The translations under genes were made by a program, and so were the position numbers. DNA of 47,771 nucleotides, taken from contig JAFGHF010000003.1 of assembly GCA_016939375.1 (NCBI GenBank), positions 1-47,771 of the forward strand, written 5' to 3'. Positions 19,370 through 38,887 of the stretch are shown here, in pieces. Positions within the stretch are counted from its first letter, which is position 1. The number at the start of each line of letters is the position of its first letter. This DNA comes from Candidatus Omnitrophota bacterium. GTDB taxonomy: Bacteria > Omnitrophota > Gorgyraeia > JAFGHF01. Below the pieces are notes generated by a model, which saw only the letters and a list, made by a program, of their open reading frames with translations, ran no database searches and was not told the origin of the DNA.

Positions 19370-19821
19370 AGATATATTTGGACCAGATCCCCGAGGCAGG
19401 ATTAGAGCTTAATGAAAGTTGCCAGCCTGCAACGCTGGATTTAGCCAGAGAAGATATCAGCTTTAGCGGACCAATGGAATTGTCTGCTCAAATAACCAAA
19501 GAAGTAAGCACCATTGCCGTAAAGCTAAGGATCAAGGGTAATATGTATCTTACCTGCAACAGATGCCTGGAAGAGTTTAGCATGACTTTTTACAGAGAGC
19601 TTACTTTAAATTTCCCGATAGAAAAAGCAAAAGAGATCGATCTTATCGATAACGTACGCGAAGAAATAATCTTAAACTATCCGCTTAAACCTTTGTGCCG
19701 CCAGGATTGTTCTGGGTTATGTCCGGTGTGCGGCCAGAATTTGAATAAAGGCAGATGTGGGTGTCAAGTAAGGCCCAAGCTTGCGGAGGGAAACGAGCGC
19801 AAGCTTGATGGCCGAATTTGA
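19366..19821 (+). CDS. yceD: YceD/DUF177 family protein
   Basis: The 151-residue protein belongs to the YceD (DUF177) family, whose gene normally precedes rpmF as it does here. It contains a central strand-rich part with LTCNRCLEEF and a C-terminal Cys-rich region CRQDCSGLCPVCGQNLNKGRCGC that may bind zinc. YceD proteins are linked to 23S rRNA accumulation, but the mechanism is not settled. It overlaps ackA by 4 nt. Oddly, the last 15-17 codons are encoded by DNA that forms a perfect inverted repeat (AAGCTTGCG at 19777-19785 with CGCAAGCTT at 19798-19806). The stop codon lies in the TTTGACCCC boundary of a repeat element, so the native C-terminus was probably replaced by an inserted element. 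Confidence 0.85.
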   Translation: MKIYLDQIPEAGLELNESCQPATLDLAREDISFSGPMELSAQITKEVSTIAVKLRIKGNMYLTCNRCLEEFSMTFYRELTLNFPIEKAKEIDLIDNVREEIILNYPLKPLCRQDCSGLCPVCGQNLNKGRCGCQVRPKLAEGNERKLDGRI

Positions 19822-20010
19822 CCCCGCACCAAATTACTAATAACGGTGTAATTAATATTAGTGCGGGAGGAGCTAGATTCCTAAGTTTATTTTAACCCCA
19901 ACCGCAATCCGTAATTTGGTGCGGGGTTTAGTTCGCACTCTCTATAAGGAGAATAACTAAAGTAGATTGATTTACGCCGCACAAAGTGCTCCGTAAATCA
20001 AGTGCTCATT
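19770..20010 (+). repeat. Composite three-hairpin element, copy B (yceD-rpmF)
   Basis: Hairpin 0 pairs AAGCTTGCG (19777-19785) with CGCAAGCTT (19798-19806) inside the yceD end. GGCCGAATTTGACCCC follows. Hairpin I is a 105-bp unit whose ends are perfect 16-base inverted repeats, CCCCGCACCAAATTAC (19822-19837) and GTAATTTGGTGCGGGG (19911-19926). Hairpin II has an outer GCAC (19934)/GTGC (20002) pair and an inner TTGATTTACG (19967-19976)/CGTAAATCAA (19992-20001) stem, followed by TCATT. The rpmF Shine-Dalgarno AAAGGAG follows. Hairpin I is homologous to the copy at 24501-24606. Confidence 0.85.
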
Positions 20011-33064: not shown

Positions 33065-33070
33065 ATGCAC

Positions 33071-33291
33071 CGTCTTCGGGGCAGGGTGCCCTGCCGGCCA
33101 TATCTAATATGGGCAGGCAGGAATTCCCGACCGGCGGTTAACCCCGTTAGAAATAAGATGCCAGAGGCATTTGTTATGTTTTGGGCATTGATTTCTAACT
33201 GGGTGAAAGCCCGCGAATCCTTAGAGATTATTAGGATAGAACCGATGAAATCCCGGTGCCGATAGTAAAAGTCTAGATGGAAGAGGACGCG
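33071..33291 (+). promoter_or_regulatory. FMN riboswitch (RFN element)
   Basis: The conserved RFN blocks appear in order: TCTTCGGGGCAGGGTG, AATTCCCGACCGGCGG, AAAGCCCGCGAA, GATGAAATCCCGGTGCCGA, and AGTCTAGATGGAAGAGGA. The aptamer binds flavin mononucleotide and lowers riboflavin gene expression. Two arms are expanded. About 30 extra bases follow GGGTG, and one stem is extended by GTTAGAAAT pairing with ATTTCTAAC around a long loop. It lies between a strong promoter and a terminator placed just before ribBA, so control is probably by premature termination. Confidence 0.95.
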
Positions 33292-33328
33292 ATAATCGAG
33301 ATAATCAATTTAATGGTGAAGATTTATG

Positions 33329-38260: not shown

Positions 38261-38289
38261 TTGAATTTTCGGCACTTGTGTGGTATACT
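38261..38289 (+). promoter_or_regulatory. Sigma70-type promoter of the GEMM-like leader
   Basis: TTGAAT at 38261-38266, a 17-nt spacer and TATACT at 38284-38289 predict a transcript start near 38296, giving a leader of about 280 nt. Confidence 0.65.
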
Positions 38290-38310
38290 TCAAGTGGACA
38301 ATTGAATAGA

Positions 38311-38497
38311 AGACGAAAAAGGCAAACCCCGTTAGAGATAATGGGGCTTGCCACGTTAGAGGTTATCTCTAACGGGGCAAACCATCTGAAAAGATGGGGC
38401 AGGCTCGAGACCTCCGTCGTAGATTTGACGGGCAAAACCACAGGCCTAAACTTAAAAGGCGACTTTTAAGTAGGGCAGCTGGGTTACCGAACCTAGA
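38311..38497 (+). promoter_or_regulatory. GEMM (c-di-GMP-I)-like riboswitch with expanded 5' half
   Basis: The 3' half matches the GEMM core well: CAAAACCACAGGCCTAAAC, a perfect 9-bp stem ACTTAAAAG-GCGA-CTTTTAAGT, then GGGCAGCTGGGTTACCGA. The 5' half carries the GGCAAACC motif twice, at 38321 (after GACGAAAAA) and at 38377, the second with a CCATCT-GAAA-AGATGG tetraloop stem. Between them CCCCGTTAGAGATAA (38327-38341) pairs perfectly with TTATCTCTAACGGGG (38363-38377), and this excludes shorter hairpins such as GTTAGAG/CTCTAAC. GEMM-I RNAs bind cyclic di-GMP, and a subclass binds cGAMP. A terminator follows. The exact P2 pairing is unclear, so an altered or duplicated aptamer is possible. Confidence 0.65.
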
Positions 38498-38504
38498 AGG
38501 CATC

Positions 38505-38535
38505 AACCCTATTCCAGATGGAATAGGGTTTTTTG
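38505..38535 (+). terminator. Terminator of the GEMM-like leader
   Basis: AACCCTATTCC (38505-38515) pairs with GGAATAGGGTT (38520-38530) and is followed by a T-tract ending in TTTTTTG. It stands between the aptamer and the ribosome site of the next gene, the expected place for a riboswitch expression platform. Confidence 0.88.
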
Positions 38536-38575
38536 TTAGACTCAAAAAAATCGAAAGGAGAGGGGGTGAAAAGCA

Positions 38576-38887
38576 ATGAGGAGACTACTGATTTGTACAA
38601 TAATGCTGGGAATGGTTCTTTTGGCTGTAGCTCCCTGCTTTGCCGAGAACGCGCTGAGTAAGCTTGGTAGAGGTTTGGTTAATGGTGCCACGGGCTTTTG
38701 TGAATATCCTAAACAGATAGTGGAGACTTCAAAGGAACATAATGCCGCTGTTGGGCTTACCTGGGGACAGCTTAAGGGTGTTGGCATGGGTGTGGCAAGA
38801 CATGCGTTGGGCGCCTATGATACGGCGACCTTCTATCTGCCACCTTATGACAAACCGGTTCTTGAACCCGAGACTGTGTTCCAGTAG
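38576..38887 (+). CDS. TIGR04073-type exported protein (exosortase-associated family)
   Basis: The 103-residue protein has a signal peptide of about 23 residues (MRRLLICTIMLGMVLLAVAPCFA). A mature domain follows with the family-type sequence LGRGLVNGATGFCEYPKQIVE, then LTWGQLKGVGMGVARHALGAYDTATFYLPPYDKPVLEP. This matches the short TIGR04073 family, described as exosortase-system-associated in some genomes; its function is unknown. No exosortase is visible here. GAAAGGAG lies upstream of the ATG. It is alone between a riboswitch-like leader with terminator upstream and a terminator downstream, so cyclic-dinucleotide control of this one exported protein is the best inference. Confidence 0.8.
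   Translation: MRRLLICTIMLGMVLLAVAPCFAENALSKLGRGLVNGATGFCEYPKQIVETSKEHNAAVGLTWGQLKGVGMGVARHALGAYDTATFYLPPYDKPVLEPETVFQ

Follow-up and report, generated by a model that had tools for sequence, protein, structure and literature searches.

The leader of a TIGR04073-family gene in the window, by which we mean the whole 47,771-nucleotide stretch of Candidatus Omnitrophota DNA that was analysed, is an ordinary c-di-GMP-I riboswitch bearing an unusual, well-documented scar. A short palindromic mobile element of non-autonomous type has very probably inserted into the riboswitch, with the conserved motif GGCAAACC rebuilt at both junctions and a complete aptamer left in place (Table 1). An Rfam search returned a single RF01051 (c-di-GMP-I) aptamer at 46.5 bits (E 4.6e-6), which places it in the family by score (curated cut-off 35 bits). 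Of the two copies of GGCAAACC in the leader, the second is the one used in the alignment. The conserved GGCAAA, GCAAA, CUAA and ACCGA segments were all found, together with P2 and P3, and the base of P3 is paired (AACC/GGTT). The leader thus shares with other RF01051 riboswitches the GGCAAACC motif, a GNRA-capped P2, GCAAA, a P3 with the CUAA receptor side, and a 3' GGUUACCGA followed by a terminator; it differs in that its 5' motif holds a 51-bp element plus a 4-bp duplication and its P2 internal loop holds a 31-nt insert of two hairpins. The position that we take, from the Vc2 structure, to select between c-di-GMP and cGAMP is a G. The folding energy of the leader was -98.1 kcal/mol (z = -8.7 against shuffled sequence). 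A preliminary description of this DNA had doubted that it was a standard c-di-GMP-I riboswitch and had named the lack of any Rfam hit above threshold among the outcomes that would refute its reading. RF01051 scored above its cut-off, and the doubt is justified for the layout and mistaken for the aptamer.

Together with the two GGCAAACC motifs, the leader contains a perfect 15-bp inverted repeat (38327-38341/38363-38377), a GEMM 3' half in which both GGCCTAAAC and GGGTTACCGA were confirmed, the competing hairpins GGCAAACCCC/GGGGCTTGCC (with one A.C mismatch) and CGTTAGAG/CTCTAACG, and a terminator preceding the TIGR04073 gene. All of these had been reported beforehand and all were recovered. 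The segment between the target copies has the attributes of a MITE: it is short and non-coding, has terminal inverted repeats, is bounded by a target-site duplication (CAAA), has copies at unrelated sites and has a corresponding empty site. It would have entered the CAAA within the conserved GGCAAACC at the base of P2, those 4 bp becoming duplicated, and the target GG-CAAA-CC would have given GG-CAAA-[CC... at the left junction and ...GG]-CAAA-CC at the right. Both junctions read GGCAAACC because the element begins with CC and ends with GG. The motif survives the insertion because element ends and target duplication jointly regenerate it, which also explains the double GGCAAACC with no need of aptamer duplication. 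The downstream copy adjoins untouched P2 and P3, and a complete aptamer therefore remains. In the RNA the element would form two local hairpins 5' of the aptamer, c-di-GMP would still be bound by the aptamer, and binding would work through the conserved terminator. Judged from sequence, the switch is probably still functional despite the insertion, and the element is most likely a tolerated passenger. It may have been moved by a transposase acting in trans; an autonomous partner sharing its ends was sought as exact-end pairs about 0.7-3 kb apart, and there was none among the matches listed (G019, G048, G073), so we infer movement from the structure of the element.

Table 1. Features of the leader and its surroundings, in coordinates of the window.
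Feature	Position	Strand	Basis
Sigma-70-type promoter of the leader, TTGAAT-17-TATACT	38261..38289	+	consensus match only
Left GGCAAACC: pre-insertion GG + CAAA (target copy 1) + initial CC of the element	38321..38328	+	outside the aptamer of the Rfam alignment
Hairpin 1, GGCAA.CCCCGTTA-GAGA-TAATGGGG.TTGCC (left target + left half of the element)	38321..38352	+	folding
CAAA direct repeat, left copy (4-bp target-site duplication)	38323..38326
MITE-like palindromic element, 51 bp, with terminal inverted repeats CCCCGTTAGAGAT (38327-38339) and ATCTCTAACGGGG (38365-38377)	38327..38377		copies elsewhere and empty orthologous site
Hairpin 2, CGTTAGAG/CTCTAACG (from the element's right half)	38354..38374	+	folding
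c-di-GMP-I (GEMM-I) aptamer, RF01051, 46.5 bits	38366..38491	+	Rfam
Right GGCAAACC: final GG of the element + CAAA + pre-insertion CC; serves as functional 5' motif of the aptamer	38376..38383	+	Rfam alignment
CAAA direct repeat, right copy (4-bp target-site duplication)	38378..38381
P2 stem with GNRA-type loop, CCATCT-GAAA-AGATGG	38382..38397	+	identical in the G004 orthologue
Two-hairpin insert, 31 nt, in the P2 internal loop	38401..38431	+	absent from the G004 orthologue; sequence unrelated to the element
P2 closing strand GCAAAACC, P3 with CCUAAA, 3' end GGGTTACCGAA	38432..38491	+	Rfam alignment
Intrinsic terminator stem AACCCTATTCC/GGAATAGGGTT, then T run	38505..38530	+	kept in the orthologue
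TIGR04073-family gene downstream of the switch	38576..38887	+	80.3 bits, cut-off 50

The empty site was found in G004, which belongs to another genus of the family and has the same gene order as the window (ribD-ribE-leader-TIGR04073-PadR; locus L021). Its leader reads GGATAAAGGCAAACCATCTGAAAAGATGGGGCCGCAAAGCCACAGGCCTAAACT, with the empty site GGCAAACCATCTGAAAAGATGG and an uninterrupted GGCAAACCATCTGAAAAGATGGGGC, has the same terminator arms and scores 75.8 bits against RF01051. By comparison, the window has gained 55 bp (the 51-bp element plus CAAA) and, after GATGGGGC, the 31-nt insert, which bears out an earlier suggestion of an insertion inside P2. Either the element arrived after the genera of the window and of G004 had split, or G004 lost it precisely. 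The 31-nt insert seems to extend P2, either as a structural addition or as a tolerated one, and it could impair the aptamer. Between P2 and GCAAA, two hairpins side by side were also seen in L005, L006, L007, L093 and L111, with no sequence in common; the other aptamers of the class that we examined have long inserts in P3.

TIGR04073 was found in 34 of 59 relatives. The comparison of TIGR04073 leaders, proposed earlier as a check, gave no general link with c-di-GMP-I: among 29 loci of relatives and the window's own, RF01051 lay nearby only in G000 and G007, to which the G004 orthologue is added, and the idea of such a link was rejected. At L240 (G001:C59), which has the gene order of the window, promoter and terminator are retained and the c-di-GMP-I aptamer is gone from the TIGR04073 leader.

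Inverted pairs of CCCCGTTAGARAT/ATYTCTAACGGGG occur at about 20 places in the 1.74-Mb genome, as elements of about 28-110 bp with varied spacing, in prepilin leader codons, at start codons, in leaders and in the FMN riboswitch of the window. Other genomes of the class have many as well: exact half-sites numbered 84 in G073 and 50 in G048, against 0 for a reversed-pattern control, and in these two genomes they were mostly paired and about 122 bp long. Half-sites with two mismatches showed no excess over the control in the genome (69 versus 70), and only exact half-sites and one-mismatch half-sites in inverted pairs are informative. Matches were also obtained in records named Deltaproteobacteria, Patescibacteria, Phycisphaerae, WOR-3 and others. 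An exact 4-bp flanking direct repeat was present at 61 of 77 copies from this genome and its relatives (shuffled mean 11, maximum 22), the copies being chosen by their ends and not by the repeat, and not being statistically independent. The commonest duplications were TAAA/TTTA and TGAA/TTCA. An integron attC-like attachment site was considered for GTTAGAG/CTCTAAC and rejected on reading the sequence: the ends are in the wrong order and the copies carry 4-bp duplications.

Seven c-di-GMP-I aptamers in this genome scored above the cut-off, and three of them contain the element (the window's, L002 and L007). These three share near-identical first 60 bases (AAAAAGGCAAACCCCGTTAGAGATAAYGGGG...GCCACGTTAGAG....TCTCTAACGGGGCAAACC), the two other copies being 93% and 89% identical to the window's, and have different aptamers and downstream genes; L002 and L007 also have similar promoters just 5'. 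In other genera the element sits at the same motif at L042, L043, L044/L052, L093, L106, L111 and L125, and c-di-GMP-I aptamers of at least six genera besides that of the window contain it. Listed by genome, elements at GGYAAACC of c-di-GMP-I are those of G000 (three), G018, G019, G037 (two), G209/G176, G134 and G315, together with L125; the element-bearing sequence of G209/G176 is the same as in records titled Candidatus Omnitrophota. In G006 the element lies a few bases upstream of the motif. The L093 and L111 aptamers fall below the Rfam cut-off, presumably owing to their inserts, and were identified by sequence alone. With about 228 c-di-GMP-I hits in the 59 genomes searched, element-bearing aptamers amount to a few per cent.

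Among the 77 copies, CAAA/TTTG duplications were uncommon and nearly all in c-di-GMP-I motifs. Plain random insertion is therefore an insufficient explanation; the concentration may reflect target preference, survival of harmless insertions, or copying between riboswitches. The question raised is whether the element homes to c-di-GMP riboswitches or whether only harmless insertions survive. Copying would mean that one ancient insertion was transferred by recombination into other c-di-GMP-I leaders, without further transposition. The near-confinement of CAAA duplications to these aptamers and the shared internal sequence and orientation are in its favour, but homology around the site extends over only about 8-20 bp, the downstream aptamers are very different and the elements are 89-93% identical between loci. 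We regard recombination as rather unlikely.

The riboswitch-resident elements are compound: a short GAGA-looped hairpin is followed by a second hairpin. In an alternative fold, the outer ends could pair as a helix of 13-15 bp, in which the functional GGCAAACC would have its GG (38374-38377) taken up. The two folds are truly mutually exclusive, and a co-opted insertion could use them for regulation, the 15-bp helix hiding the GG and blocking the aptamer and the local hairpins releasing it, with a choice that could follow transcription speed, temperature or another factor. The composite form recurs at the motif in the same orientation in several genera, its terminal repeats remain almost perfectly complementary, and L111 and L125, from different genomes, carry it before apparently homologous genes, which argues that it can persist. 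Such complementarity is, however, what transposon ends should show, and copies within coding genes have it too; in the orthologue, leader and terminator are the same and the element is absent. In each of the three copies in this genome, the local hairpins, which are compatible with the aptamer and would form first in transcription, were more stable than the long helix by 4-7 kcal/mol (-33.0 versus -28.7, -32.3 versus -25.3 and -30.9 versus -27.2 kcal/mol). Across ten compound elements (three from this genome and seven others), the terminal repeats were nearly invariant between genera, whereas the hairpin stems varied with little compensation (one covarying pair in hairpins 1 and 2). That the best-conserved columns are the terminal repeats and not the stems fits transposon ends, and selection on the hairpins as RNA was rejected on the pair counts. 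We therefore take the competing folds to be a side effect of transposon ends. The chance that they have a regulatory role is low but real, and co-option as a whole appears quite unlikely. The proposal of a two-input switch finds no support: the helices that compete are formed by the terminal inverted repeats of the element, which occurs equally in coding sequence, and the local hairpins prevail over the long helix.

It is distinctly doubtful that a subfamily of the element is specialised for c-di-GMP-I riboswitches, entering GGCAAACC, rebuilding both sides and adding exclusive folds, one of which hides key guanines, so as to place a second layer of control on many switches at once. A degenerate tandem aptamer, in which the upstream module would be what is left of an older aptamer's 5' half, is highly improbable: the module does mimic P2 (GGC-AAA-stem-GAGA loop-stem-nnn-GCC-A-CG), and tandem c-di-GMP-I riboswitches, which likewise have two GGCAAACC-type motifs per leader, are common (347 doublets, PMC9481103), but this leader has one complete aptamer only, the upstream module on its own reached 10.1 bits with the best-scoring c-di-GMP family, whose cut-off is 59, had no RF01051 match, is missing both a 3' half and the tetraloop receptor, and is built from mobile-element repeats that occur outside riboswitches, and the orthologue has a single aptamer.

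Insertion of the mobile element with regeneration of GGCAAACC offers a clear natural case in which a mobile element entered a riboswitch at its most conserved motif and did not destroy that motif. Riboswitches with a double motif can arise without aptamer duplication, which calls for caution towards two-input readings, and inserts of this kind lower covariance-model scores or cause members to be missed (L093, L111). In the open-licence literature searched, no paper was found on the inverted repeat CCCCGTTAGAGAT, on GFTPLE or on an insertion sequence within an aptamer, and as far as those papers show, neither the element family nor its presence in riboswitches appears to have been described. 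A review of bacterial MITEs calls MITE-made riboswitches only conceivable (PMC10969869). The element resembles the MITEs of that review in being short, in lacking coding capacity, and in having terminal inverted repeats, a target-site duplication, many copies and transcribed hairpins; it differs in sitting in a riboswitch motif that its ends and the duplication rebuild. With the Rickettsia palindromic elements (PMC10969869) it shares a palindromic structure and in-frame residence in genes, here the prepilin leaders L055, L061 and L076; it is shorter, differs in sequence, has a 4-bp duplication and is also found at riboswitches and start codons.

By the same junction arithmetic, prepilin Gly-Phe-Thr codons (e.g. 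GGATTTACC, L055) become two GFT copies. The in-frame copies of L076 (which reads KGFTPLEIKRYKQLLCSKHRFLTGFTLVEL), L055 and L061 give KGFTPLE...LTGFTLVEL, in which the Pfam N_methyl match falls on the downstream GFT copy, and L072 and L082 resemble prepilin leaders from sequence. At L071, L073, L078, L081 and L085, element end and duplication (GTGAA, ATGAA, ATGAG) appear to give the start codon. Near 760-860 of L138 (JAHFJD010000008.1, Doudnabacteria), a tRNA-Pro(CGG) gene is bracketed by the inverted repeats of the element.

The FMN riboswitch of the window (33068-33292) has a copy of the element family in its P3 loop, at 33138-33207 (TTAA-CCCCGTTAGAAAT...ATTTCTAACTGGG-TGAA). The corresponding P3 loops of G001 and G004 are short and empty (GGTAAAAGCC, GGTAAAGCC), and P3 of L284, the FMN riboswitch of G003, has two tandem copies of another palindrome (CACCGGCGCTTCCTTTAGCGCCGGGTG). 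Positions 19818-19932 of the window are taken up by another inverted-repeat element, with ends CCCCGCACCAAATTAC/GTAATTTGGTGCGGGG and flanks TTGA/TTTA, of which the genome has no second copy when 0 mismatches are allowed.
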